A stretch of 55,647 nucleotides of DNA from a virus. The notes below the pieces were generated by a model. It saw only the letters and a program-made list of their open reading frames with translations, had not been told where the DNA came from and did not search any database. The DNA is taken from positions 1 to 55,647 of the IMG/VR virus record IMGVR_UViG_3300044838_000023, one strand, 5' to 3'. This document shows, in pieces, positions 2,364 to 55,647 of the stretch. Positions within the stretch are counted from its first letter, which is position 1; each line of letters begins with the position of its first letter. The position numbers and the translations under genes were made by a program.

Positions 2364-2501
2364 GTGTCACAAAGTGCGGAACGTATGGCGGTCTACAACG
2401 CATATTCCGGTAAGGAATGGCACGACCGCGTCAATAAGATGTCTGATTCACAGATCGTCGCCATCTACATGCGACTCAAATTGCAAGGGAGAATCAAGTG
2501 A
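2364..2501 (+). CDS. small hypothetical protein
   Basis: A 45-residue protein from GTG 2364, with RBS TAGGAGGTCG overlapping the stop of the previous gene. It is basic and helical (MSDSQIVAIYMRLKLQGR) with no membrane span. Its TGA overlaps the GTG of the next gene (GTGA), so the three genes 1676-3373 form a translationally coupled set. In-frame extensions further upstream have no ribosome site. Confidence 0.65.
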   Translation: MSQSAERMAVYNAYSGKEWHDRVNKMSDSQIVAIYMRLKLQGRIK

Positions 2502-3373
2502 AGTTCGTTCCGAATGCGGTCAGCGTAGCTGCCGCTCGTTCAATTCTCACCAGCCAGAAGCACAGCCCAAAGACGCTCTTCCTCGCCGGCATCGTCGGAA
2601 TGGGGGCGACGGTATATTTGTCATGCAAAGCAACCCTCAAGGTCGAAGCAGTTCTCGATGAACACGAGAAGGAAAACGCAATCCTTGCTGAGACCAGCAC
2701 TGGGATTGTCAATAACACGGCGTTCCACAACCGCGAGATGGCTAAGGCCAAGCTGAACCTCGCGCTCGATCTCGGCAAGCTCTACGGTCCGGCAATTCTC
2801 TGCGGAGCAGTTTCCGTGGCGGCACTGGCCGGCTCGCACAACATCCTTTCCAAGCGCAATGCAGCTCTCGCGGCGGCATATGGTGCAGTCGAGAAGGCCT
2901 TCGGCGAGTATCGTGGTCGGGTTCGTGAGGCCTACGGCGAGGAGAAGGAGCAGGAGATCTACAACGATGTCCAGGTCTGCGAGATCGAGGACCCGGAGAC
3001 CGGCAAGAAGAGCAAGGCCAAGAAGGGTCAGGGCGGCGGGCCATATTCGTTCTTGTTCGACGAGTTCAACAAGAACTGGGAGCCTCAGCCCGAGTACAAC
3101 TTCATGTTCCTCAAGCTTCAGCAGCAGTACGCTAACGATCGTTTGCAGGCTCGTGGGCATCTCTTCCTGAATGAGATCCTGGATGCTCTCGGTCTCGAGC
3201 ACACCAAGGCCGGCGCAGTCACTGGCTGGATCAAGGGTAAGGGCGACGACTATGTCGACTTCGGCATATTCGAGGGCCGCAACGAAGAGAAGATCGTCGA
3301 GTTCATGATCGGCCGGGAGAAGTCGATCTGGCTGAACTTCAACGTCGACGGCACCATCTACGACAAGATCTGA
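2498..3373 (+). CDS. DUF6353-like phage membrane protein
   Basis: A 291-residue protein from GTG 2498 (coupled GTGA). Two hydrophobic segments (about residues 28-45, LFLAGIVGMGATVYLS, and about 87-110, GPAILCGAVSVAALAG) flank a KATLKVEAVLDEHEKE helix, followed by the block SKRNAALAAAYGAVEKAFGEYRG. That block and the first membrane segment closely match the protein encoded across the window ends (STKRAAALAAAYSLSEKAYSEYRE; VKATLKASPKIEAE), so the two are paralogues. The C-terminal half is soluble and ends in a domain with a conserved GW. DUF6353 membership is recalled from family knowledge; no function is established. Confidence 0.85.
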   Translation: MKFVPNAVSVAAARSILTSQKHSPKTLFLAGIVGMGATVYLSCKATLKVEAVLDEHEKENAILAETSTGIVNNTAFHNREMAKAKLNLALDLGKLYGPAILCGAVSVAALAGSHNILSKRNAALAAAYGAVEKAFGEYRGRVREAYGEEKEQEIYNDVQVCEIEDPETGKKSKAKKGQGGGPYSFLFDEFNKNWEPQPEYNFMFLKLQQQYANDRLQARGHLFLNEILDALGLEHTKAGAVTGWIKGKGDDYVDFGIFEGRNEEKIVEFMIGREKSIWLNFNVDGTIYDKI

Positions 3374-20268: not shown

Positions 20269-20294
20269 CTCGCGAGTTGACTTTAATATATGAT
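20269..20294 (+). promoter_or_regulatory. CTCGCG-type promoter with TTGACT
   Basis: CTCGCG (20269-20274), fourteen bases, TATGAT (20289-20294), the cassette promoter spacing. TTGACT at 20277 with TACTAT at 20299 could also act as an ordinary -35/-10 pair. It lies in the 172-base gap after the helicase. Confidence 0.5.
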
Positions 20295-20366
20295 CCTATA
20301 CTATATGTGAATCCCCAGGGGTTTTGCGAAGCTCACCAAAGTGGCATTTTCGGCAGAGGAAGGAGA

Positions 20367-20912
20367 ATGATGGCGCGAAGCGTCGATCAAGGTTATCGAG
20401 TCCGTGGTGAGTGGGTTGAGATGCACGAGTATCCCAACTACGCAATCAGCAATCTCGGACAGGTGATGAATGTAACCACTGGCCAGATCAAGAACCACTC
20501 AAAGAACCAGCAGAACATCGCGATGGTTAATCTGTCGATTCTCGGACAGCAAAATATTCGATCGGTTGCCGTCATGGTTGCTGAAGCATTTCTGGATCGT
20601 AGCGAGGTCCCAGACTACTTCAACACGCCTATTCATCTCGACGGTGACAAGATGAACTGCTCAGCTGGAAATCTGGCATGGCGACCACGTTGGTTTGCTG
20701 TTAAGTATCACCAACAGTTCAGTCCGTGGGAGCGGGCTAACCGGTATGGCTTCGTGTGTCCAGTTGAGCTCATCGACACAGGTGAGGTGTTTCCGACATC
20801 ATGGGAGGCAGCGGTCAAGTATGGGATGCTGGATCGAGAGATCTTCATCGCTACACAAAATCGTACCTACGTTTTCCCACACATGTTCACCTTCCGTGAA
20901 GTAGAGCTTTGA
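20367..20912 (+). CDS. NUMOD4/HNH homing-endonuclease-like protein
   Basis: A 181-residue protein from ATG 20367 (RBS GAGGAAGGAG). Residues 13-45 (GEWVEMHEYPNYAISNLGQVMN) form a NUMOD4 motif; HLDGDKMNCSAGNLAW is the HNH-like core. Such enzymes cut DNA at specific sites and spread by homing. The nuclease core has fewer obvious ligands than typical HNH proteins, so activity is uncertain. Its place just after the interrupted helicase may be relevant to that interruption. Confidence 0.75.
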   Translation: MMARSVDQGYRVRGEWVEMHEYPNYAISNLGQVMNVTTGQIKNHSKNQQNIAMVNLSILGQQNIRSVAVMVAEAFLDRSEVPDYFNTPIHLDGDKMNCSAGNLAWRPRWFAVKYHQQFSPWERANRYGFVCPVELIDTGEVFPTSWEAAVKYGMLDREIFIATQNRTYVFPHMFTFREVEL

Positions 20913-20937: not shown

Positions 20938-20963
20938 CACGCGTGTAATTCGTGGATTATAAT
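20938..20963 (+). promoter_or_regulatory. CACGCG-N14-TATAAT promoter
   Basis: CACGCG (20938-20943), fourteen bases ending GTGGAT, TATAAT (20958-20963). The same layout as at 1292-1317, which also ends GGAT TATAAT. It drives the nuclease/exonuclease/RNA-polymerase-like operon. Confidence 0.7.
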
Positions 20964-21342: not shown

Positions 21343-21844
21343 CTATCATTGGGTCAACTACACCGAGGAAGATCTCGATGGTCGGTTTGTCTCAGCGATG
21401 GCTGCTCAACGTGGTACTGCTTTGCATGATCTGGCACGTGACCTTATTACCTTAGGTGTTAAGTTGCCGAAGACTCGTACAACTTTAAACCTCTACGTGA
21501 ACGATGCGATTGGTTATCGTATGAGTCCTGAGCAGCCTCTGTATGTTTCAGAGAACTGTTTCGGTACAGCCGATGCTGTTTCGTTCCGTCGTAACCTACT
21601 TCGAATTCACGATCTAAAGACAGGCGTCACGCCGGTCAAGATCACACAACTCGAGGTCTATGCCGCAATGTTCTGCATGGAGTACCGATTCAAACCTTTC
21701 GACATCGACATCGAACTCCGTCTTTACCAGAACGACGACATGGTTGCGTATGAGGCAGATAACAATGTCATCATGCACATCATTGATAAGATTCAAACCT
21801 TCGACAAGCGGATTACCGATTTGAAGATGGAGGCACTGTCGTGA
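21284..21844 (+). CDS. Cas4/RecB-like PD-(D/E)XK exonuclease
   Basis: A 186-residue protein; ATG 21284 has GAGGT upstream and is chosen over the longer frame. It has AAQRGTALHDLARDL (RecB-like helix), GTADAVSFRRNLLRIHDLKTG (Asp, then Asp-x-Lys active site) and QLEVYAAMFCMEY (Q...Y motif). This is the Cas4/RecB nuclease family without an obvious iron-sulphur cysteine set. Probable role is end resection for recombination. Confidence 0.85.
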   Translation: MNFNTHSNLVGRHAFLSASNYHWVNYTEEDLDGRFVSAMAAQRGTALHDLARDLITLGVKLPKTRTTLNLYVNDAIGYRMSPEQPLYVSENCFGTADAVSFRRNLLRIHDLKTGVTPVKITQLEVYAAMFCMEYRFKPFDIDIELRLYQNDDMVAYEADNNVIMHIIDKIQTFDKRITDLKMEALS

Positions 21845-24561
21845 TTATCGAAGAGGAAGTCTATCTCGCGCATTATGGCATCCTCCGGAAGTCAGGACGG
21901 TATCCGTGGGGTAGTGGCGAAGATCAGCACACTCGCAACAAGTCGTTTCTCGATACCGTAGAAGGTCTGCGGAAAGACGGCATGTCTGAGCCCGACATCG
22001 CTCGTGGTTTCGGTATGAAGGTTACCGAGCTCCGGGCCCTCAAGTCAATTGCAGGAAATCAGCAGAAGTTGGCTAACATCTCTCAGGCCCAGAAACTTCA
22101 CGACAAAGGTCTGTCAAATGTTGCCATTGGTAAGCAGATGGGTCTAAATGAATCATCTGTTCGTAATCTCTTGGCACCTGGTGCTTCTGAGAGAGCGGAT
22201 ATTCTGCAAAACACTGCTAACATGCTTCGACGCGAGGTCGACGCAAAGGGCTACATCGACATCGGTGCTGGAGTCGGCAATCAGTTGGGTCTCAGCGAGA
22301 CTCGATTGAAAACAGCTGTTGCCATTCTCGAAGAAGAGGGTTATCGAACCTACTATCCAAAAGTTCCACAAGTGGGTACGATTCACGAGACCTCTCTCAA
22401 GGTTCTCGGTCGTGGCGACGTCACTCCTAAAGAAGCTTATGCTGCTATGAAGGAAGACGGTGGTATTAAGCAGATTCAGGAGCACACCGATGATGCTGGT
22501 CGTGGTTGGGGTGGAAATCAGCCTCCGATAAACATCGATTCAGGTCGCATTGGAATTAACTACAAAGAGAATGGCGGAGACAAGGCTGACGGCGTGATCT
22601 ACGTTCGTCCGAATGTCGAAGACGTCTCTATCGGAAAAGCCCGTTACGCACAAGTTCGTATCTCAGTTGATGGGACTCACTATCTAAAGGGTATGGCCGT
22701 CTACAAGGATGACCTTCCTGATGGTGTGGATCTTGTCTTCAATACGAATAAGTCGTCTACAGGTAACAAGCTCGATGCAATGAAGCCGTTAAAGCGAGTT
22801 GCACTTCCGGGAGATGCAAAGGATAAGCCAACTGGGCCTGTCGATGACGAAAATCCATTTGGCGCTATTACTCGTCAACTTCCAAAACTCGACGAACACG
22901 GGAATGCAATAAAGAATACCGTTCGTTCTTCGATGAACATTGTCAATGACGAAGGTAAATGGGATGATTGGTCAAGAAACCTTTCAACTCAGTTCTTGTC
23001 AAAACAGAGTCCGACCCTAGCTCAAGAACAACTCGATATGACGTATGAGCGAAAGCGTCAAGAACTAGACGACATCAAGGCGCTTACAAATCCAGCTGTA
23101 AAACGAAAGATGTTGGATTCCTACGCCGATGATGCTGATTCATCAGCAGTACATCTTAAAGCACAAGCTTTACCACGTCAACGTTCTCAGGTCATTCTCC
23201 CAATTACGTCTCTCAAGGAGAATGAGATCTATGCGCCGAACTTCCAAAACGGTGAACGTGTTGTCTTAGTACGTCACCCTCATGGTGGAACATTCGAGAT
23301 TCCTGAGTTGACAGTAAACAACAGAAATAAAGAAGGTAAAGCCACCCTTGGTGAGAACGCTAAGGATGCAGTCGGAATTAACCATAAGACAGCAGCACGT
23401 CTATCTGGTGCCGACTTTGACGGTGACACCGTTCTTGTGATTCCGAACAATGCAGGAAAGGTGAAAACCGAACGCGCTCTGGAAGGCCTAAAGGACTTCG
23501 ATCCTCAGGCGCTATACAAGCTTCCAGATGAAGCGCCACACATGTCGTCTCAGACTAAGCAGACTCAGATGGGTCTGGTGTCTAATCTCATTACCGACAT
23601 GACCATTAAAGGCGCAAACAACAACGAGCTTGCTGCAGCAGTTCGTCATTCAATGGTTGTGATCGATGCTGAGAAGCATCACTTGGACTACAAGAAGTCT
23701 GCTATTGAGAATGGCATACCGGCTCTCATGAAGAAGTATCAGGGTCGCTCACAGGGTGGTGCATCTACGTTAGTCTCACGTGCTAAGAGTGAGGCTACTG
23801 TTGCTAAGCGTAAAGGTAGGTCAGCTGCAGAAGGCGGTGCTATTGATCGTGCAACAGGTAAGAAGGTGTTTACCCCTACAGGCGAGAGCTTTGTCAGTAA
23901 GAAGACAGGCGAGGTTGTTGTTAAGACAGAGAAGGTTAAGAAGATCCTTGAGGCCAACTCAGCACGTGAGTTGTCTTCTGATACACGCATTGAGAACATC
24001 TATGCGGATCACTCTGATCGTCTACAACAGTTAGCCAATGAGGCACGTAAAGAGTTTGTCAACACCAAGCCCATTCCTATGTCGGAGTCGGCTAAGGCTG
24101 TTTACGCCCCCCAGGTCAAGTCGCTGACACATAAGTTGAATGTGGCTTTGCAGAACGCACCCCGTGAGAGACAGGCCCAGGTAGTAGCCAACACCATCGT
24201 TGCTACTAAGAAACAGAACTACCCTGACATGGAGAAGTCGGATCTGAAGAAGATCAAAGCTCAAGCATTGGCTGAAGCACGCATTCGTACAGGCGCTAAG
24301 AAGGAACGCGTTGACATCACTGATGATGAGTGGAATGCCATCCAAGCTGGGGCAATCAGCAATCACAAGCTCGAACAGATCCTCAGCAATGCAAACCTTG
24401 AGCAAGTGAAGACGCTGGCCACACCACGAACACCAACAGTGATGACTACAGCTAAGCAGGCACGAGCTAAGTCTATGCTCGCTTCTGGCTACACACAGGC
24501 TGAAGTTGCTACCGCCCTAGGTGTCGCACTGTCGACACTCAAGTCAAGCGTAATCGAGTGA
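21841..24561 (+). CDS. two-barrel RNA polymerase-like protein (YonO-like, DFDGD)
   Basis: A 906-residue protein from GTG 21841, coupled to the exonuclease stop. N-terminus: AHYGILRKSGRYPWGSGE, a degenerate form of the H.G..G..WG.R tag of the phage structural proteins, then two helix-turn-helix-like segments (about 35-60 and 75-100). Residues 455-535 contain FQNGERVVLVRHPH and LSGADFDGDTVLVIP with D525, D527 and D529, the metal-binding DbDGD signature of multisubunit RNA polymerases and of single-chain YonO/QDE-1 enzymes. YonO of phage SPbeta is of nearly identical length. The C-terminus ends with another HTH-like segment. Probably transcribes late phage genes; the tag may direct it into virions. 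Fewer ATATT motifs and more A/T-ending codons than neighbours suggest a separate origin. Confidence 0.75.
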   Translation: MIIEEEVYLAHYGILRKSGRYPWGSGEDQHTRNKSFLDTVEGLRKDGMSEPDIARGFGMKVTELRALKSIAGNQQKLANISQAQKLHDKGLSNVAIGKQMGLNESSVRNLLAPGASERADILQNTANMLRREVDAKGYIDIGAGVGNQLGLSETRLKTAVAILEEEGYRTYYPKVPQVGTIHETSLKVLGRGDVTPKEAYAAMKEDGGIKQIQEHTDDAGRGWGGNQPPINIDSGRIGINYKENGGDKADGVIYVRPNVEDVSIGKARYAQVRISVDGTHYLKGMAVYKDDLPDGVDLVFNTNKSSTGNKLDAMKPLKRVALPGDAKDKPTGPVDDENPFGAITRQLPKLDEHGNAIKNTVRSSMNIVNDEGKWDDWSRNLSTQFLSKQSPTLAQEQLDMTYERKRQELDDIKALTNPAVKRKMLDSYADDADSSAVHLKAQALPRQRSQVILPITSLKENEIYAPNFQNGERVVLVRHPHGGTFEIPELTVNNRNKEGKATLGENAKDAVGINHKTAARLSGADFDGDTVLVIPNNAGKVKTERALEGLKDFDPQALYKLPDEAPHMSSQTKQTQMGLVSNLITDMTIKGANNNELAAAVRHSMVVIDAEKHHLDYKKSAIENGIPALMKKYQGRSQGGASTLVSRAKSEATVAKRKGRSAAEGGAIDRATGKKVFTPTGESFVSKKTGEVVVKTEKVKKILEANSARELSSDTRIENIYADHSDRLQQLANEARKEFVNTKPIPMSESAKAVYAPQVKSLTHKLNVALQNAPRERQAQVVANTIVATKKQNYPDMEKSDLKKIKAQALAEARIRTGAKKERVDITDDEWNAIQAGAISNHKLEQILSNANLEQVKTLATPRTPTVMTTAKQARAKSMLASGYTQAEVATALGVALSTLKSSVIE

Positions 24562-24823: not shown

Positions 24824-24981
24824 TAACTTCATAGGATTTAAGAATTAAGAGGTAGGGGGGAGGGGTCTCGCGAATGAGACCCCCCTTCTGCATCGCCGCT
24901 GTCCACAAAAAAGACCCGGAGGGAATTTTCCCGCATTGGTTTCGGTTTCTCGGGGTTTGACGTCGCCGAGAGGAGGTCACG
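24824..24981 (+). promoter_or_regulatory. early/late boundary intergenic region
   Basis: A 158-base gap holding a terminator (24862-24888) and then a second inverted repeat TCTCGG...CCGAGA (24948-24971) next to the small-terminase RBS. No cassette-type CTCGCG-N14-TATAAT promoter is present. If a late promoter for the RNA polymerase-like enzyme exists, this is the likeliest place. Confidence 0.4.
24862..24888 (+). terminator. terminator closing the RNA-polymerase operon
   Basis: GGGGTCTC, GCGAAT, GAGACCCC form a perfect 8-bp stem, followed by CCTTCTG. The arms repeat the GGTCTC(GCG) and GAGACCCC sequences that flank the cassette promoters. Confidence 0.8.
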
Positions 24982-49056: not shown

Positions 49057-50171
49057 TGGATCTTTACGTGTGTGATGCGAACTGGTTGAAGACCGATCTG
49101 GTGGACTCGTTCGACTCGCTTATTTGGACTGATCGATACAATGCGTATGGCGACGTTACACTCACACTTCCGGATACTCCGGCGAATCGTGCTTTGATCA
49201 CCGAGGGCATATTTCTACACATGCCGCTGTCCACAACGATCATGTTGGTTGAAACCATAAGCATCAAGGATAGTGTGATCACCGCTACCGGAACGGATCT
49301 GGTTAACTTCCTGCGGAATCGGTTATTTCGTCTTGGCTGGCAGGGAACAACAGACGTGTGGCAGTCCATAGGAATTGCTGCATACTCTCTCATCAACACG
49401 ATCATGTCGTTGTTAGCGCAGCCTGGTACGTATCTCACTACTGGCCCAATCCTTACGAGCGCGCAGGGCACGAACGAAGTTATCCCACATTTAACGGTGT
49501 CAGCTACCGCACCAGGCTTACCGAACCCAGGCATTAACATCTCGATCCCTTATGGCAATCTCTATGACGCCATAAAATCGGTCGCTGATGCTGACAATCT
49601 GGGTTTCACGATGTATCCGCCAAGCATGACTGACGGAACAGGAAACATCACATTCAAGACGTACCGTGGTTTGGATCGAACAACGTCTCAGAGCACAAAT
49701 CCTCAAGTCATATTTGATCCGGCCCTTGACACGTTAACTGGGACTGAAGAACTACGGGACATCTCAGGTTATAAGAATGTGGCTTGGGTTTGGCCAAATG
49801 GAATCACGGCTCAAACGCAGGTTGGGGTGGCATACGCCCCAGGAGCCAATCTTCTTTCGAGTTGGCAGCGTCGGACCATCATGGTCGAGGCAACAGATGT
49901 AAATGTTCCTGACTACACCACAGCAAACCTTGCGCTAGTATTAACACAGCGTGGGAAGGATGCTTTGGCGAACAATAACTATTCTAGACTGTTGACCGGA
50001 CAGATTGTCCCACAAAATGGTTACTCGTACGGAACCGACTACAATCTAGGTGATATTGTTGAATTGCGGGGGCCGTCGGCAACTGCGCAAAAGGCGCGAA
50101 TCACTGAGTATATTCGTTCTCAGGATCCGACGGGGGAAAACGCATATCCGACACTTTCTGTCGTCGGCTAA
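49056..50171 (+). CDS. ReqiPepy6 Gp37-like tail-tip protein
   Basis: A 371-residue protein. ATG 49056 overlaps the Dit stop (TAATG); a longer frame into Dit is rejected. LIWTDRYNAYGDVTLTLPDT, NRLFRLGWQGTTDVWQ, YGNLYDAIKSVADADNLGFTMY and YNLGDIVELRG are typical of the tail proteins named after Rhodococcus phage ReqiPepy6 Gp37, which serve as the tail hub (Tal-like). Consistent with an actinobacterial host. Confidence 0.88.
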   Translation: MDLYVCDANWLKTDLVDSFDSLIWTDRYNAYGDVTLTLPDTPANRALITEGIFLHMPLSTTIMLVETISIKDSVITATGTDLVNFLRNRLFRLGWQGTTDVWQSIGIAAYSLINTIMSLLAQPGTYLTTGPILTSAQGTNEVIPHLTVSATAPGLPNPGINISIPYGNLYDAIKSVADADNLGFTMYPPSMTDGTGNITFKTYRGLDRTTSQSTNPQVIFDPALDTLTGTEELRDISGYKNVAWVWPNGITAQTQVGVAYAPGANLLSSWQRRTIMVEATDVNVPDYTTANLALVLTQRGKDALANNNYSRLLTGQIVPQNGYSYGTDYNLGDIVELRGPSATAQKARITEYIRSQDPTGENAYPTLSVVG

Positions 50172-50183
50172 AAGGAGGCCCGG

Positions 50184-50459
50184 ATGTTGAAGGAATGGCA
50201 GTTCAATATTCTCTTCTTCATCGGCACCGGAGGGGCTGTGTTCCTGCTGGTTGGTCCAGAATTTGGACTAAGCATCGCGGACAACCCAACGGCGTTGGCT
50301 GGGGTGGGCTCAATCCTGACTTATATTCTCACGCAGAAGAGTGCGCTGACGAAGAACGTCAAGCGGAAGAGCCGGCGTCGGCATGAAGAGGACGACGAGA
50401 ACGAGTCCGATAAGGAACCGTTCAAGAGTCCGTACGGAGAGAGCGGAGATGGAGGGTGA
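50184..50459 (+). CDS. two-span membrane protein, holin-like
   Basis: A 91-residue protein, RBS AAAAGGAGGC. Spans at about 8-28 (NILFFIGTGGAVFLLVGPEFG) and 36-52 (TALAGVGSILTYILTQ), then a highly charged cytoplasmic tail (KRKSRRRHEEDDENESDK). Resembles small phage holins or inner-membrane proteins after tail genes. A second holin is possible. Confidence 0.7.
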   Translation: MLKEWQFNILFFIGTGGAVFLLVGPEFGLSIADNPTALAGVGSILTYILTQKSALTKNVKRKSRRRHEEDDENESDKEPFKSPYGESGDGG

Positions 50460-51049
50460 TGGATACACGTCTTGGCGCACTGCTAGTTGGATGCGTCATC
50501 GGTTTCATACTCGGATACATCGTTCGATCTCTTCGCGAGATCAAAGCAAAGGTGGAAAAGGTGGATGAACACATCATGAATACGAAGCCGCATGGCGATG
50601 ATGGTTTCACCACTCCCGGGTGGCTGCAAAACATCGCGTTATTGGTTGTCGTTGCGATTACTGCTTGGTCGGCTTTCGCGAGCCAGCACAACTCAAATAC
50701 CATCAGTAGCCAGTCTGACTCGATCCAGAGTCAGCAGGATGCTTCTGACAAGCTTGTGGCCTGCAACCAGCAGTACCTTGCAGCTACAATTGCTGCGCTT
50801 AACGCTCGCACGACATTTAGTCAAGAGCAGAGCGCTGCGAATGTGAGCCTGCAGAAGTCGCTCAGTAACCTTGTTACGCTGTCGCTGAGGACGCCACCAC
50901 TAGGACCAGAGGCAGCAAGACAAGTGGTTGTCGGTTTCTCTGACGCGCTTAAGCACTTTCTCGATCTCAGTGCTAAGTCAGCAGACAAGGTAAGTGAGAA
51001 TCCGTATCCAACGGCTACTGGTCTTCTCGATTGCATCCATAAAAAGTAG
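50459..51049 (+). CDS. membrane protein with external coiled domain
   Basis: A 196-residue protein, ATG 50459 overlapping the previous stop, with GGAGG upstream. Span 1 about 6-24 (GALLVGCVIGFILGYIV), span 2 about 60-78 (NIALLVVVAITAWSAFA), then a Ser/Gln-rich coil (SQHNSNTISSQSDSIQSQQ) and a domain with paired cysteines. Likely part of the lysis or envelope group with the previous gene; a spanin-like role is speculative. Confidence 0.65.
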   Translation: MDTRLGALLVGCVIGFILGYIVRSLREIKAKVEKVDEHIMNTKPHGDDGFTTPGWLQNIALLVVVAITAWSAFASQHNSNTISSQSDSIQSQQDASDKLVACNQQYLAATIAALNARTTFSQEQSAANVSLQKSLSNLVTLSLRTPPLGPEAARQVVVGFSDALKHFLDLSAKSADKVSENPYPTATGLLDCIHKK

Positions 51050-51059
51050 GGGGACTAAA

Positions 51060-51284
51060 ATGATCGTGTTTCTAGTTGTCGTCATTGTGCTGATGGGTCT
51101 AACGATCCTCGCTATGGCGGCCAAGATGAGAAAGATCAGTTACCAAGGCGAGATCTTGGTCTTTGAGACCGACGAGAAGAAGACTTTCTCGATTGAACCA
51201 TTCGGTGACATCGACAAGCTGGATCAGCGGACAGACATCCGGTTGAAGGTTGTAAAAGCCTCCACAGGTGGGCCTCGCGAGTAA
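51060..51284 (+). CDS. small single-span membrane protein
   Basis: A 74-residue protein, ATG 51060 behind AGGGGGACT. N-terminal span (VFLVVVIVLMGLTILAMAA) followed by a small beta-like soluble part (SYQGEILVFETDEKKTFSI). The end of the gene overlaps the cassette promoter at 51274. Last gene of the late block. Confidence 0.7.
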   Translation: MIVFLVVVIVLMGLTILAMAAKMRKISYQGEILVFETDEKKTFSIEPFGDIDKLDQRTDIRLKVVKASTGGPRE

Positions 51285-51299
51285 AACGCGGGCTATAGT
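51274..51299 (+). promoter_or_regulatory. cassette promoter, CTCGCG-N14-TATAGT
   Basis: CTCGCG 51274-51279, fourteen bases, TATAGT 51294-51299, then GAGACCCCTACC and AAGGAGAACC before ATG 51323. First promoter of the mini-gene array. Confidence 0.75.
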
Positions 51300-51322
51300 G
51301 AGACCCCTACCTAAGGAGAACC

Positions 51323-51604
51323 ATGTTCAACCGAAAGCCCGTCAACCAGACCGCCTTCGATGAAGCGATCGCTAACGCGCTCCGCGAGCTGGCCGGTCAT
51401 GAAGCCGACACCGAGGCTTACCAGACAATCGTCACCCAACTAACCGCACTGAATGCGATCCAAACCACCAACAAGGATCGCGTCAGTAAGGAAACGCTGG
51501 CTGTCATTGCTTGTAACCTCGCTGGAATCATCATGATCGTCAGCCACGAGCACGTGAACGTCATCACATCGAAGGCTTTTGCACTGATCGGCAAGACACG
51601 CTGA
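51323..51604 (+). CDS. cassette mini-gene 1: small protein with C-terminal hydrophobic span
   Basis: A 93-residue protein, RBS TAAGGAGAACC. Acidic helical N-terminal 55 residues (FDEAIANALRELAGHEADTE), then a hydrophobic stretch (TLAVIACNLAGIIMIVS) and a short polar end. It has its own promoter and a 13-bp terminator downstream. Function is unknown. Confidence 0.75.
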   Translation: MFNRKPVNQTAFDEAIANALRELAGHEADTEAYQTIVTQLTALNAIQTTNKDRVSKETLAVIACNLAGIIMIVSHEHVNVITSKAFALIGKTR

Positions 51605-51636
51605 ACTAGTTACCACAGACTAGAGACCCCAAGAGC

Positions 51637-51679
51637 CAGAGTGCTTGTAGACCTAACCCGTTTACAAGTGCTCTGACTT
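51637..51679 (+). terminator. cassette terminator
   Basis: CAGAGTGCTTGTA (51637-51649), 13-base loop, TACAAGTGCTCTG (51663-51675), then ACTTTT. Thirteen pairs with two G-U. Longer than the others in the array. Confidence 0.8.
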
Positions 51680-51721
51680 TTAGGTTTAAACAGTCAAAAT
51701 GGGAGTGATTTGCTTTGGTCT

Positions 51722-51747
51722 CTCGCGAGAAAAACATGGGTAATAAT
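51722..51747 (+). promoter_or_regulatory. cassette promoter, CTCGCG-N14-AATAAT
   Basis: CTCGCG 51722-51727, AGAAAAACATGGGT, AATAAT 51742-51747, then GAGATCCCTACT. Preceded by GGTCT, the inverted partner of the GAGATCC behind the -10. Confidence 0.75.
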
Positions 51748-51775
51748 GAGATCCCTACTAAACTAAGGAACCATT

Positions 51776-51943
51776 ATGTCTGCCCACAAGACCATCATTG
51801 CCTCCTACGCTCTTATCGGTGCCGCTGTTGCCACCTCGCTCATCTATAACAAGATGCTCGAGCGTGACGCCAAACGGTTCACCAAGAAGATGGCGCAGGA
51901 CATGGATGACCTCAAAGCCAACATTGCCAACCTCGGCAAGTAA
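51776..51943 (+). CDS. cassette mini-gene 2: tiny membrane protein
   Basis: A 55-residue protein, ATG 51776 behind TAAGGAACC. N-terminal span (TIIASYALIGAAVATSLIY, about 6-24) and a charged helical tail (MLERDAKRFTKKMAQDMDDL). Own promoter and terminator. Function is unknown. Confidence 0.75.
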   Translation: MSAHKTIIASYALIGAAVATSLIYNKMLERDAKRFTKKMAQDMDDLKANIANLGK

Positions 51944-51950
51944 CAACTCA

Positions 51951-51983
51951 AACCTCAGCCACAATAACTTGTGGTTTAGGTTT
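51951..51983 (+). terminator. cassette terminator
   Basis: AACCTCAGCCACA (51951-51963), loop, TGTGGTTTAGGTT (51970-51982), one mismatch and one G-U, short T-run. The downstream gap to 52049 also holds a 13-codon frame from GTG 52030 with GGGGGAG before it, ending inside the next promoter; probably not a gene. Confidence 0.7.
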
Positions 51984-52049
51984 CGCAAAATAAACAAGCA
52001 GTATAAAAAATTGCCCGGGGGAGATTTCCGTGAAAAAGTTGATCATGCT

Positions 52050-52075
52050 CTCGCGGGATTTACATGGGTAATAGT
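52050..52075 (+). promoter_or_regulatory. cassette promoter, CTCGCG-N14-AATAGT
   Basis: CTCGCG 52050-52055, GGATTTACATGGGT, AATAGT 52070-52075, then GAGACCCCTACT. Identical over this span to the copy at 52354-52379. Confidence 0.75.
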
Positions 52076-52102
52076 GAGACCCCTACTAACAAAGGAAACG
52101 TC

Positions 52103-52309
52103 ATGCCCCAGAAAACGGTTTACGCAGACGACATTCTCGCTACCGACACCATCGAAATGGGAGGCGCGGAATTCTTCATCACAGACGTTATTATCAACAA
52201 CGCTGTCGATGGAGACGTCCACCTCACCATGCACCCGATCGGTTCAGAGAACTTGAAGTTCTACGCGTACCTGCCAAAACACTGGCCTACTACCATCCGT
52301 CGTAAGTAA
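52103..52309 (+). CDS. cassette mini-gene 3: small acidic soluble protein
   Basis: A 68-residue protein. ATG 52103 (RBS AAAGGAAACG) is the start; the longer frame from 52064 begins inside the promoter. Beta-rich, no membrane span (TIEMGGAEFFITDVIIN, DVHLTMHPIGSENLKFYAYL). The only clearly soluble product of the short promoter-linked cassettes. Function is unknown. Confidence 0.75.
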   Translation: MPQKTVYADDILATDTIEMGGAEFFITDVIINNAVDGDVHLTMHPIGSENLKFYAYLPKHWPTTIRRK

Positions 52310-52319
52310 CTACCTCAAG

Positions 52320-52350
52320 ACCTCGAGCCCCTAACACGGGCTTTAGGTTT
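52320..52350 (+). terminator. cassette terminator
   Basis: ACCTCGAGCCC (52320-52330), loop CTAACAC, GGGCTTTAGGT (52338-52348) with one mismatch and one G-U, then TT. Confidence 0.7.
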
Positions 52351-52353
52351 CAC

Positions 52354-52379
52354 CTCGCGGGATTTACATGGGTAATAGT
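52354..52379 (+). promoter_or_regulatory. cassette promoter, CTCGCG-N14-AATAGT
   Basis: CTCGCG 52354-52359, GGATTTACATGGGT, AATAGT 52374-52379, then GAGACCCCTACT. It begins only four bases after the previous terminator. Confidence 0.75.
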
Positions 52380-52406
52380 GAGACCCCTACTATCTAAGGA
52401 TTCCAA

Positions 52407-52559
52407 ATGAACAACACCCAGAAGCTCGCCGCTTCGACCGCTGTTACTGCCTTCGCCGCTGCTGCTACGTATTTCCATACGAAGAACAAGCGCGCGAAGA
52501 ATCGTAACAACGTTCGTCGCTACGGAGAATGGCTTGCCATCACCGGAACCACCGTCTAG
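52407..52559 (+). CDS. cassette mini-gene 4: tiny basic protein with hydrophobic N-terminus
   Basis: A 50-residue protein, ATG 52407 behind TAAGGATTCC. Alanine-rich hydrophobic stretch (LAASTAVTAFAAAATYF, about 7-23), then a very basic part (HTKNKRAKNRNNVRRYG). Own promoter and terminator. Function is unknown. Confidence 0.7.
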   Translation: MNNTQKLAASTAVTAFAAAATYFHTKNKRAKNRNNVRRYGEWLAITGTTV

Positions 52560-52567
52560 TAATCCTC

Positions 52568-52603
52568 AAAACCTCAGCCACAGAAACATGTGGTTTAGGT
52601 TTT
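52568..52603 (+). terminator. cassette terminator
   Basis: AAAACCTCAGCCACA, loop GAAACA, TGTGGTTTAGGTTTT; one mismatch, good T-run. Near-identical to the hairpin at 51951. Confidence 0.8.
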
Positions 52604-52604
52604 C

Positions 52605-52630
52605 CTCGCGAAAAAAACACGCCGTATAAT
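52605..52630 (+). promoter_or_regulatory. cassette promoter, CTCGCG-N14-TATAAT
   Basis: CTCGCG 52605-52610, seven A, CACGCCG, TATAAT 52625-52630, then GAGACCCCTACC. Perfect -10. Confidence 0.75.
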
Positions 52631-52656
52631 GAGACCCCTACCCGAAAGGAACCATC

Positions 52657-52836
52657 ATGAAGAAGTTCATTGACAACCTGAAGGCTCAAGCCGAAGCCAA
52701 CCCGCTCGCCGCAATGGCCGCCGCCGCCCTACTGTTCACCGCAACAGCCAAGCTGCTGGACGCCAATACCGCGCGCTCGTCCGCCCGGACCCATGCCCTC
52801 GAAGTCAATCGCCGAATCGCGAACTCCAACCGCTAG
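52657..52836 (+). CDS. cassette mini-gene 5: tiny membrane protein
   Basis: A 59-residue protein, ATG 52657 behind GAAAGGAACC. Hydrophobic Ala-rich span (PLAAMAAAALLFTATAKLL, about 16-34), Lys-rich N-terminus and Arg-rich C-terminal helix (ARSSARTHALEVNRRIA). Function is unknown. Confidence 0.75.
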   Translation: MKKFIDNLKAQAEANPLAAMAAAALLFTATAKLLDANTARSSARTHALEVNRRIANSNR

Positions 52837-52843
52837 TCCTCAC

Positions 52844-52871
52844 AACCATATCCTACACGGGGTATGGTTTT
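52844..52871 (+). terminator. cassette terminator
   Basis: AACCATATCC (52844-52853), loop, GGGTATGGTT (52860-52869), then TTT. Ten pairs with one G-U. Confidence 0.75.
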
Positions 52872-52873
52872 CA

Positions 52874-52899
52874 CTCGCGGGAAAAACATGGGTAATAGT
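52874..52899 (+). promoter_or_regulatory. cassette promoter, CTCGCG-N14-AATAGT
   Basis: CTCGCG 52874-52879, GGAAAAACATGGGT, AATAGT 52894-52899, then GAGACCCAAACCCCTAC, a leader with a small duplication. Confidence 0.75.
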
Positions 52900-52929
52900 G
52901 AGACCCAAACCCCTACAAAGGAGCCACAA

Positions 52930-53112
52930 ATGCCCAAGAACCCCGTCAAACCCGTCGCGAAGTTCGTTTCCCGCCACCGCGTTGCCATCGCCGTTGCCGC
53001 CACATTCACTGTGACGGTGATGCTGAATCGCACCGCCCTCAAGCAGCACAACGACTTCCTGAAGGACCACGACCTCTACGAAGCTTTCTACGCCCAGTTT
53101 GAAGAGGAGTAG
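52930..53112 (+). CDS. cassette mini-gene 6: tiny membrane protein
   Basis: A 60-residue protein; ATG 52930 behind AAAGGAGCC is the start (the longer frame from 52864 crosses the promoter). Basic N-terminus, span VAIAVAATFTVTVML (about 18-32), then an acidic helix (NDFLKDHDLYEAFYAQFEEE). Function is unknown. Confidence 0.75.
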   Translation: MPKNPVKPVAKFVSRHRVAIAVAATFTVTVMLNRTALKQHNDFLKDHDLYEAFYAQFEEE

Positions 53113-53119
53113 TCCCAAG

Positions 53120-53148
53120 ACCTAGACCATACACATGGTTTAGGTTTT
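53120..53148 (+). terminator. cassette terminator
   Basis: ACCTAGACCAT (53120-53130), loop ACAC, ATGGTTTAGGT (53135-53145), TTT. Eleven pairs, one G-U. Confidence 0.85.
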
Positions 53149-53173
53149 CATATTTGCCCAAATTGGAGGAACC

Positions 53174-53395
53174 ATGTCGACACTCAAGGAACGACTCGAA
53201 GCAACGCTCGGAGTCATCGACAGCAGCGATATTTCGCTAACAGAGTATGTTGTGCATCTCTACTACTTCTTCTCGTTCGAACGTCAGATCGTCAAGCGGA
53301 ACCGCGCACATCACAAGGCCGAGAAGCTTAAGCAGAAGATCGACGAGAATCTTGAGGTGTTCATCTTCCGCAAGCAGATGAGTGATCACCCATGA
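53174..53395 (+). CDS. small helical protein without own promoter
   Basis: A 73-residue protein, ATG 53174 behind TTGGAGGAACC. Charged helical sequence (SLTEYVVHLYYFFSFERQIVKR, HHKAEKLKQKIDENLEVF). No CTCGCG promoter lies between it and the preceding terminator, so it depends on read-through. Its TGA overlaps the next ATG. Confidence 0.7.
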   Translation: MSTLKERLEATLGVIDSSDISLTEYVVHLYYFFSFERQIVKRNRAHHKAEKLKQKIDENLEVFIFRKQMSDHP

Positions 53396-53673
53396 TGCCA
53401 CTTAACTCTTATGAGACGCACGTTCAATGTGACTGCGGTGGTACTCTTATCGTGATCGCCACACCAGATGACAATCTCCTTGCGCAAAGCCTAGATGACG
53501 AGAACTTCAACGTGTGGAAATACGAAGAAGTGTTGACCTTCAAGCACCGAGGAGAATTCACCAATCGCTGCTTGGAGTTCAAGAACGAAGTTGTAAAACT
53601 CATGCAAGAAGACACGCTGCGGCGAACACAGGGACTTCTGGGCCGGTTCATATCGCGCGAAATACATGGGTAA
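53392..53673 (+). CDS. small soluble protein ending within a promoter
   Basis: A 93-residue protein from ATG 53392 (or 53395), coupled to the previous gene. QCDCGGTLIVIATPDDN, then a helical C-terminal half. It ends ISREIHG, encoded by the promoter at 53652-53677. The other promoters, read in the same frame, give the similar SR(D/E)xHG-stop. Confidence 0.7.
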   Translation: MMPLNSYETHVQCDCGGTLIVIATPDDNLLAQSLDDENFNVWKYEEVLTFKHRGEFTNRCLEFKNEVVKLMQEDTLRRTQGLLGRFISREIHG

Positions 53674-53677
53674 TAGT
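53652..53677 (+). promoter_or_regulatory. cassette promoter, ATCGCG-N14-AATAGT
   Basis: ATCGCG 53652-53657 (one change from CTCGCG), CGAAATACATGGGT, AATAGT 53672-53677, then GAGACCCCTACC. Overlaps the end of the 53392 gene. Confidence 0.7.
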
Positions 53678-53701
53678 GAGACCCCTACCCTAAGGAATGC
53701 C

Positions 53702-53917
53702 ATGTTTAAGAACCGCGCAGCCCAGGTCACATTCGTCAAGACCCCGAAGTCCGACACCGAAACCACCAAGACCACCCGTCGTTACACCGACGCTGAGATC
53801 ACCATGATCAAAAGCGCCGCTAAGAACGTCGGTGTGTACTTGCTGGGTTCGGCCGTCGCACTCAAGTTCACGAGTGCGATCTGCACCATCGCCATCAACG
53901 CCGCACCCAAGAAGTAA
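53702..53917 (+). CDS. cassette mini-gene 7: small membrane protein
   Basis: A 71-residue protein, ATG 53702 behind TAAGGAATGCC. Polar Thr/Lys-rich N-terminal half (KTPKSDTETTKTTRRYTDAE), then a hydrophobic C-terminal span (VGVYLLGSAVALKFTSAICTI). Own promoter and terminator. Function is unknown. Confidence 0.75.
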   Translation: MFKNRAAQVTFVKTPKSDTETTKTTRRYTDAEITMIKSAAKNVGVYLLGSAVALKFTSAICTIAINAAPKK

Positions 53918-53924
53918 TCTCAAC

Positions 53925-53955
53925 ACCTAGACCACAAACACGTGGTTTAGGTTTT
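53925..53955 (+). terminator. cassette terminator
   Basis: ACCTAGACCAC (53925-53935), loop AAACAC, GTGGTTTAGGT (53942-53952), TTT. Same stem sequence as at 53120. Confidence 0.85.
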
Positions 53956-53978
53956 AACTTTAAACTAAGGAGACTAAA

Positions 53979-54359
53979 ATGCTTCGCAATCTGTTCGCTA
54001 CCTATATCATCGCTTCGCTTATGCTCCTGCTCGGAACGCTTCTCCCTTGGGCCAGCCTAATGGGTATATCTGTCGGTGGCTCAGACACCGACGACGGCAA
54101 GCTTATGCTTATTCTAGTGGGAGTTGTCGCAATCGCTGCGGTACTAGCACGTCGTCGCCCCAACGCTGCACAGGTCATTGGCCTCATTGGCTACGCTCTC
54201 GCGTTGGCTATGGGAATCTACGAAATCCACCACATCACCTCTCGGAGCCTTATGGGTATGCATCCGTCGGTGGGCTCGGGCCTTTGGATTGTTGTTGTCG
54301 GCTCAGTCATCGGTCTTGTCGGCAGCTTCCTCCCAACTAGTAAGAAGGTATCTGTTTAA
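53979..54359 (+). CDS. multi-span membrane protein
   Basis: A 126-residue protein, ATG 53979 behind TAAGGAGAC. Four predicted spans (about 7-27, 42-58, 67-83, 101-119) with short loops, e.g. LMLILVGVVAIAAVLA and SGLWIVVVGSVIGLVGSFL. No cassette promoter directly upstream. Similar small tetraspan proteins act in membrane stress or phage exclusion, but I recognise no specific family. Confidence 0.7.
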   Translation: MLRNLFATYIIASLMLLLGTLLPWASLMGISVGGSDTDDGKLMLILVGVVAIAAVLARRRPNAAQVIGLIGYALALAMGIYEIHHITSRSLMGMHPSVGSGLWIVVVGSVIGLVGSFLPTSKKVSV

Positions 54360-54380
54360 TATCCGGTCTACCCAATCTGA

Positions 54381-54406
54381 CTCGCAAGATTTACACGGCT
54401 CTTAAT
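54381..54406 (+). promoter_or_regulatory. diverged cassette promoter, CTCGCA-N14-CTTAAT
   Basis: CTCGCA 54381-54386, AGATTTACACGGCT, CTTAAT 54401-54406, then GAGACCAACTCTCACCCTACC. Same spacing, weaker -10. Confidence 0.6.
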
Positions 54407-54440
54407 GAGACCAACTCTCACCCTACCAAAGGAGATCCAA

Positions 54441-54638
54441 ATGTCCGACACCGAAACCGCAGTTAACACCGCAGGAGACGTCGTCAAGGAGATCGTCAAG
54501 GTCGCTACAATCGGAGCCGCAGTCACTGCCGCCGAGGTTGCTGGTGCCGTTGCGATCCTTCTCGTCGTCGGCCTCGTTGCCAACAAGCTGCAGGAGCGCA
54601 AGGCCAAGAAGAACGCCCTTACCGTAGTCCCCGAGTAG
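54441..54638 (+). CDS. cassette mini-gene 8: tiny membrane protein
   Basis: A 65-residue protein, ATG 54441 behind AAAGGAGATCC. Acidic N-terminus (SDTETAVNTAGDVVKEIV), long hydrophobic Ala/Val span (TIGAAVTAAEVAGAVAILLV, about 23-45) and basic tail (KLQERKAKKNAL). Own promoter and terminator. Function is unknown. Confidence 0.75.
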   Translation: MSDTETAVNTAGDVVKEIVKVATIGAAVTAAEVAGAVAILLVVGLVANKLQERKAKKNALTVVPE

Positions 54639-54647
54639 TCCCAACAG

Positions 54648-54678
54648 CCTAAGCCACATACACGTGGTTTAGGTTTTT
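54648..54678 (+). terminator. cassette terminator
   Basis: CCTAAGCCAC (54648-54657), loop ATACAC, GTGGTTTAGG (54664-54673), TTTTT. Ten pairs with one G-U and a good T-run. Confidence 0.85.
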
Positions 54679-54705
54679 GCCAAACTAACCCTGAAAGGGA
54701 AAACT

Positions 54706-54822
54706 ATGAACAACCGTCACCGCTATGGCTGTCTCAACTTCCTATTCGACTTGCTCATGATCTGCGTCACGGGCGGGTTATGGCTCATCTGGATCTTCTG
54801 CCGGGAGATGCGTAACCGATGA
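54706..54822 (+). CDS. tiny membrane protein
   Basis: A 38-residue protein, ATG 54706 behind GAAAGGGAAA. One span (FLFDLLMICVTGGLWLIWIF, about 12-31) between basic ends. It is followed by an overlapping ATG (ATGA), so it is coupled to the next gene. No cassette promoter directly upstream. Confidence 0.65.
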   Translation: MNNRHRYGCLNFLFDLLMICVTGGLWLIWIFCREMRNR

Positions 54823-55004
54823 GTCAACAACAGCACTACAATTCAGCCACAGCAATCGGATGGGTTCTGCTCATCGTAATGATCGTCATCGCAGTCATAT
54901 TCGTAGGTGAACTGATCCACGATGGCTACAAGAAGTATCGGACTCACAAGAACGACAACAGCATATTCAAAGCTGCCGAGGAGGCACGAAGTGATTTCAG
55001 TTAA
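54819..55004 (+). CDS. small membrane protein
   Basis: A 61-residue protein from ATG 54819. Span about 12-31 (AIGWVLLIVMIVIAVIFVGEL), then a charged helix (KKYRTHKNDNSIFKAAEEAR). It overlaps the next gene by 14 bases; GAGGAGG inside its end is the next gene's RBS. Confidence 0.7.
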   Translation: MSQQQHYNSATAIGWVLLIVMIVIAVIFVGELIHDGYKKYRTHKNDNSIFKAAEEARSDFS

Positions 55005-55647
55005 GGTCCTGGCGAAGCAGGTTGAGAAGTTCACCCTGGATAATTCGCCGGCAATCCTCACAGGGGTGGGAGCATTTGGATCAGTTACGTCTGTGGTGCT
55101 GGCGGTTAAAGCCACACTCAAGGCGAGTCCGAAGATCGAGGCGGAGCGTGAGCGCATATTCCGCGAGAACCCGATCGGCCCCGATGAGATGAAGGATGTT
55201 CACCTGTCGCCGTTCTATACGGTTAAGTTGGTATGGCTGGACTACCTTCCGTCTGCCAGCGCGCTCACAATTAGCGTGGCCAGCATCATCTGCGCGAATC
55301 GTGTGAGTACCAAGCGGGCTGCTGCGCTTGCGGCTGCATATTCGCTTAGTGAGAAGGCTTACAGCGAATACCGTGAGAAGATCGTGGAGAAGTTCAATAC
55401 GAACAAAGAGCGCGGGATCCGGGATGAGATCGCCCAGGATCAGGTTAACGCCAAGCCTCCGACCGATGCCACGATCATCATCACAGGAAACGGAGATGTC
55501 GTCTGTTTCGACAAGCCATCAGGTCGATATTTCAAGAGCAACATGGAGAAGCTCCGCTCGGTCCAGAACGACATGAACTCGCAGGTGATCGAGATCGGGC
55601 AGGCCACGTTGGATGATCTGTACGCATCGCTGAACTTGAAGGCAACA
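54991..55647 (+). CDS. DUF6353-like phage membrane protein, N-terminal part
   Basis: Starts at GTG 54991 behind GAGGAGGC and runs off the window end, continuing at base 2. It has hydrophobic segments TGVGAFGSVTSVVLAV and LPSASALTISVASIICA, KATLKASPKIEAERERIF, and STKRAAALAAAYSLSEKAYSEYREKI, matching the 2498-3373 protein. Full length about 274 residues. It ends the mini-gene array and reads into the 365-685 operon. Confidence 0.82.
   Translation, partial: MISVKVLAKQVEKFTLDNSPAILTGVGAFGSVTSVVLAVKATLKASPKIEAERERIFRENPIGPDEMKDVHLSPFYTVKLVWLDYLPSASALTISVASIICANRVSTKRAAALAAAYSLSEKAYSEYREKIVEKFNTNKERGIRDEIAQDQVNAKPPTDATIIITGNGDVVCFDKPSGRYFKSNMEKLRSVQNDMNSQVIEIGQATLDDLYASLNLKAT
55521..55647. repeat. 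terminal overlap, copy 2
   Basis: Bases 55521-55646 are identical to 1-126; the final base (a) differs from base 127 (c). See copy 1. Confidence 0.9.

Follow-up and report, generated by a model that had tools for sequence, protein, structure and literature searches.

Why should a phage equip each gene in a row of very small genes with its own promoter and terminator, and which enzyme would read those promoters? The question is raised by a virus genome of 55647 bases, IMG/VR record IMGVR_UViG_3300044838_000023, which was analyzed at its full length and is called the window here. Bases 1-126 are repeated at 55521-55646, and the genome is therefore circular. Eight small-gene units lie at 51274-54680, 3' of the tail genes and 5' of the DNA polymerase region, and a ninth lies past the circular join at 1292-1656, giving nine in total. 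Judged by its sequence, the array is a set of independent one-gene transcription units. Our best explanation as a whole, which we consider moderately probable, is that a YonO-like RNA polymerase encoded by the phage reads their promoter. The cassette motif is found almost only in phages carrying that polymerase and for this reason is probably its long-missing promoter.

All nine units follow one order: promoter, short leader, ribosome-binding site (RBS), mini-gene, and a hairpin followed by T. The promoter has the form CTCGC(G/A)-N14-(T/A)ATA(A/G)T or a close variant, and the leader resembles GAGACCCCTAC. The genes have 50-93 codons, an AAGGA-type RBS and a start codon 23-34 nucleotides (nt) past the -10 box. 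All units are on the plus strand. In unit 1, the promoter (51274-51299) runs from the TCGC box to the -10 box TATAGT, with the leader GAGACCCCTAC next; the gene (51323-51604) encodes 93 amino acids (aa; phrog_5818) and the terminator (51637-51683) has a 16-bp stem. The promoters of units 2 to 6 match the motif (51722-51747, 52050-52075, 52354-52379, 52605-52630 and 52874-52899). Their genes encode a 55-aa protein with a single hydrophobic span (51776-51943), an apparently soluble 68-aa protein (52103-52309), and proteins of 50 aa (52407-52559), 59 aa (52657-52836; phrog_13500) and 60 aa (52930-53112; phrog_12653). Terminator hairpin folds follow at 51950-51983, 52318-52350, 52568-52603, 52844-52869 and 53117-53148, respectively. 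Promoter 7 (53652-53677) has ATCGCG and overlaps the 3' end of an open reading frame (ORF) at 53392-53673; it precedes a 71-aa gene (53702-53917; phrog_6618) and a hairpin (53925-53955). Promoter 8 (54381-54406; CTCGCA...CTTAAT) is weaker and precedes a 65-aa gene (54441-54638; phrog_20298) and a hairpin (54642-54679). Unit 9 consists of a motif promoter (1292-1317), an 88-aa gene (1349-1615; phrog_7539) and a hairpin (1621-1656). The gap between a terminator and the next promoter is 3-5 nt in three cases. Four ORFs in the array (53174, 53392, 53979 and 54706) have no promoter of the cassette class.

A preliminary description of this locus had proposed at least seven repeated units, a circular join, and a leader, strong RBS and gene of 50-93 codons in each unit; the nine units, the 126-base terminal repeat and the AAGGA-type RBS bear this out. 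Its promoter pattern, CTCGCG-N14-(T/A)ATA(A/G)T, stands for nine sites at fixed spacing, with variants in units 7 and 8, and does not rise above chance in loose form. The GTGG-TTTAGG-TTT 3' arm that it assigned to the terminators is exact in units 2, 4, 7 and 8 and variant in units 1, 3, 5, 6 and 9, unit 1 having the different 16-bp stem. What it overlooked is the main point: the promoter is tied to a phage lineage with a YonO-like RNA polymerase. Individual control of the small genes is therefore probably exercised by a phage enzyme.

A compact form of the motif matches the plus strand at precisely the nine unit positions, against a mean of 0.005 matches (maximum 1) in 200 first-order Markov shuffles of the whole genome. 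Loose forms of the pattern occur at chance level (15 matches against 9.9 expected), and we therefore used the fixed-spacing pattern. The loose counts are what would be seen if chance AT-rich matches had been over-read as promoters. That explanation is refuted by the shuffles, set against nine exact places, and by a strand bias of 175 to 1 among relatives, and it can practically be dismissed. The nine terminator hairpins have folding energies of -14 to -24 kcal/mol (z -4.2 to -6.8), and for each of them none of 200 shuffles equalled the real hairpin. An Rfam scan of the array gave no match, nor did a nucleotide search of phage records with the array region.

The motif recurs in related phages. 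The consensus, YTCGCR-N3-WWWW-ACA-N5-TATARTGA, runs on into GACC-like bases and has a TCGC-to-TATA offset of exactly 19 nt. The motif matrix was built on 97 seed sites, and site sets were taken from 21 genomes or long genome parts, which hold 175 forward sites and 1 reverse; most of the 175 have the TATARTGA core. Location was counted in seven relatives with complete or almost complete genomes (phages of Streptomyces, Gordonia and Arthrobacter, and metagenomic ones). There, the late genes are free of sites (binomial p = 3e-12): of 55 sites, 47 fall between the tail genes and the DNA polymerase and the other 8 in the stretch from the DNA polymerase gene to the RNA polymerase gene. A separate promoter 5' of the first late gene was sought by eye and none was found. 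In ReqiPepy6, one site stands 9 nt 5' of a tRNA gene, the position expected for a promoter. A weaker form, TATAATAGAAGG, lies 5' of the nuclease, exonuclease and RNA polymerase operon in most actinophage relatives, and the window has a related, weaker promoter (CACGCG...TATAAT-AGAAGG; 20938-20963, plus strand) at its VRR-nuclease, exonuclease and RNA polymerase operon.

Among relatives the outer boxes drift and the ACA-to-TATA spacing stays constant. A CRCA-N3-TTTTACA-N5-TATAGT-AGAAAG-like element occurs 11-12 times in Lactococcus phages CHPC971 and 1706, essentially only at spacing 5, with 0-1 copies on the opposite strand. Lactococcus phage P078 has the variant TTTTACA-N5-TATAAT-GA and the oral phage D_HF5_2C has TTCGCA-...-TATAAT-GAA. 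Two Lactococcus phage genera keep ACA-N5-TATARTRG/GA with variant outer boxes, and their polymerase is 37-38% identical to that of the window.

The spacing is highly specific. Scanning viral contigs with the core motif found more than 119 stretches, many of them multi-copy; shifting the spacing by one base found 8 stretches with a single match each, and displacing ACA by one base gave only 4 matches. The polymerase is encoded in 34 of 36 contigs (>=38 kb) chosen by the motif alone, so that a dedicated repeated promoter co-occurs with the enzyme, as in the virion-polymerase type of P23-45 and phi14:2. One of six contigs from the shifted-spacing control encodes the polymerase, a weak comparison because several of these contigs are short. 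Across 84,980 bacterial and archaeal species genomes, the motif together with GAGACC occurs in 3 contigs of 3.4-4.1 kb. One of them (L268; 4139 bases), in an Acidobacteria metagenome-assembled genome, has promoter copies in a row, five exact and two further, and is probably a phage contig binned with that genome.

The proposed reader of the cassette promoters is a YonO-like single-chain RNA polymerase of 906 aa (21841-24561, plus strand; phrog_4291). Homologues are found in 250 phage records, from Arthrobacter, Gordonia, Streptomyces, Rhodococcus, Curtobacterium, Microbacterium, Lactococcus, Faecalibacterium and human samples. The GADFDGD catalytic motif (523-529) is invariant across 47 relatives. 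A sequence search against solved structures gave no match to the polymerase. A structure search with an AlphaFold2 model (mean pLDDT 79, pTM 0.58) returned 15 significant matches, all to QDE-1 or plant RDR2 (E 2e-7 to 2e-4); the TM score of ~0.3 indicates that the relation is distant. The model places the polymerase in the two-barrel (YonO/QDE-1-like) single-chain family, and RNA synthesis on DNA is predicted. A short helix-turn-helix (HTH) at ~872-902, near the C-terminus, has weak similarity to sigma region 4, below the Pfam cut-off, and is a possible promoter reader. In contigs G054 and G064, the polymerase match is broken into two parts whose query ranges overlap, possibly because of an insertion.

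In the phage 1706 record, the polymerase homologue bears the label ‘structural protein’. That record has 11 such labels, which make 15 with 4 putative portal, capsid and tail genes; a liquid chromatography-tandem mass spectrometry study of the 1706 virion reportedly found 15 proteins. A virion location of the polymerase comes from one database label and is a lead, not a result.

From the specificity of the motif, its co-occurrence with the polymerase, the parallel divergence of the two and the absence of a sigma-70 layout, we infer that the two-barrel YonO-like polymerase reads the cassette promoters, and that host RNA polymerase carrying sigma A does not. Virions may carry the phage polymerase, which would fire the units early in infection; genome position and precedent suggest the early timing. 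The terminators would insulate the units, so that each has its own output and any unit can be swapped. Built around a conserved first member, the set of mini-proteins, most of them membrane proteins with one span, would be early, host-directed and fast to evolve. That the motif is the cognate promoter of a virion-borne YonO-like RNA polymerase, driving swappable single-gene early units, is possible, if short of probable.

The same promoters could be host sigma-A promoters of unusual layout, with TATAAT used by host RNA polymerase and the TCGC and ACA boxes bound by a phage or host activator, in an early region like that of SPO1. The SPO1 host-takeover module has many small early genes with strong individual signals, transcribed by host sigma-A polymerase. 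Small early genes with their own signals are common to both systems, but the promoters here are without the sigma-A layout. The cassettes do have a TATAAT-like -10 box, and TATAAT or TATAGT is the sigma-A -10 box. However, no TTGACA-like -35 box stands 16-18 nt 5' of it at any cassette, and the TCGC box is 14 nt from the -10 box and therefore not a sigma-70 -35 box. Sigma-70 consensus promoters (TTGACA/TATAAT) are unenriched in the phage genomes (93 forward, 81 reverse, 106 shuffled), and 50000-55647 has one sigma-70 promoter-like site against 4.2 in shuffles. An activator could account for the outer boxes, but across host phyla these keep a rigid spacing and are specific to phages, the extended motif is nearly absent from cellular genomes, and hosts as distant as Lactococcus and Streptomyces would need an identical activator. 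Intrinsic terminators suit the host enzyme. So does the related promoter on the polymerase's own operon, which another enzyme must read first unless the polymerase enters with the virion. We regard sigma-A transcription as plausible but rather unlikely.

It is improbable that the motif represents operators or start-associated repeats, by which a phage regulator would act over weak promoters. Such sites could be phage-specific and could extend past the -10 box into the leader (GAGACCCC), as the conservation does. The repeat shows no evident inverted symmetry, though, and keeps a fixed distance to a TATAAT box, and translation is irrelevant at the ReqiPepy6 site just 5' of a tRNA. In cluster K mycobacteriophages, the start-associated sequence is a 13-bp repeat abutting start codons, whereas here the -10 box is 23-34 nt 5' of the start.

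Several observations weigh against transcription by the phage polymerase. The TATAAT core of the cassettes is identical to the host -10 consensus. Two motif-bearing contigs, both <41 kb and possibly fragments, are without the polymerase. DUF6353, a core gene of the lineage, is found in 251 phage records against 250 for the polymerase; the two distributions are practically the same, and co-occurrence therefore cannot single out the polymerase. The window encodes two DUF6353-like membrane proteins (2498-3373, and 54990-55647 joined to 1-295). YonO of SP-beta transcribes late genes and is little prone to pausing (PMC5467207). In the SP-beta late operon, 5' of yonK, there is no convincing motif site, the mapped start not being placeable on the record.

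Known systems offer partial parallels. YonO belongs, as here, to a family of single-chain DNA-dependent RNA polymerases in phages, but serves one late operon, whereas here a repeated promoter precedes small, probably early genes; its promoter sequence is stated as undetermined (PMC5467207). Thermus phage P23-45 has a two-barrel siphophage polymerase, gp96, and repeated conserved pre-early promoters that are missing in polymerase-less relatives; there the virion enzyme and the tape measure protein form a fusion, whereas the window has a separate 906-aa protein with HTH-like segments (PMC10770324). The small membrane-protein arrays of Arthrobacter cluster AM/AU and Rhodococcus Pepy6/Poco6 phages are like this one, lying after the tail genes, with similar genes and a shared lineage; the published account gives the array genes as function-unassigned (PMC5513430). 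A search of its text found no mention of promoter, RNA polymerase or terminator, and cassette units and a link to the polymerase are not described there (PMC5513430). The motif is present in Circum and ReqiPepy6, members of these groups. Promoter, cassette structure and polymerase link were also unmentioned in a text search of publications on related systems, with subscription literature outside the search, and the literal motif TATAATGAGACC had no occurrence in a text search of 5.39 million papers.

The cassettes hold a variable set of proteins. In the 19 non-Lactococcus genomes, 151 of the 173 sites lie within 110 nt of a gene (median length 73 aa); 85 of the 151 proteins have a hydrophobic span and 95 are singletons. 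Homologues of the first gene (51323-51604) stand behind the promoter in 19 genomes, nearly always as the first cassette gene, and those of the gene at 1349 in nine, as a rule at the array's far end. The preliminary description gave most of the proteins one hydrophobic span. This holds for 6 of the 9, which pass a hydropathy cut-off of 1.6; those at 52407 and 1349 are borderline and that at 52103-52309 looks soluble. The bias is significant against other small ORFs (5 of 33; p = 0.005). Envelope action, and host take-over or exclusion, which that description had suggested, are candidate roles for these proteins. Pfam gave no usable match, and PHROGs matches were to families without an assigned function only, bar weak ‘membrane protein’ and ‘holin’ matches.

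Comparison of related phages, suggested in the same description as a check on whether cassettes are exchanged as units, agrees with such exchange. Mudcat and Arcadia are otherwise near-identical over the first cassettes, and Mudcat is without ~325 bp running from just 5' of one promoter to just 5' of the next, exactly one unit. Between Rickmore and Gill, two Gordonia phages, the starts of homology blocks coincide with promoters (Rickmore 3215, 4323, 6944 and 9318, in L276 coordinates). The one missing unit and these block starts show that cassettes are gained and lost whole. Near-identical promoter-leader copies within a genome would supply short homology for unit exchange.

The remaining 22 motif sites have no gene within 110 nt (e.g. 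11316 in L263 and 25913 in G002), and leaders such as GAGAAGGAAACTTCTC could form hairpins there. Several relatives' cassettes seem to yield short structured RNAs or tRNAs, not proteins. In Scap1 (L107), the coding sequence 23058-23354 has its annotated start 5' of a promoter at 23101-23125, which suggests that the true start is the ATG shortly past the -10 box; the starts of further small genes in these phages may be wrongly annotated too.

Elsewhere in the window, 20269-20330 holds a partial TCGCG element and a TATACT box with a hairpin, 5' of a NUMOD4 homing-type gene at 20370. At 24858-24890, where the RNA polymerase operon gives way to the first late gene, there is a strong G+C hairpin, GGGGTCTCGCGAATGAGACCCC, probably close to the cos site; similar sequences occupy the equivalent place in G012, G016 and G056.

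The motif provides a precise, mutable promoter candidate for ~250 phage records, many of them from cultured phages, that carry a polymerase deposited under the misleading name ‘RNA-dependent RNA polymerase’. It marks transcription units in a region rich in unannotated or mis-started small genes, and the units form a catalogue of candidate host-directed membrane mini-proteins. The cassette layout would explain early-gene trading, with repeated promoters as the short homology for whole-unit exchange. If our explanation is true, the YonO-like family would have a defined promoter, shared with variations by Actinobacteria and Lactococcus phages.

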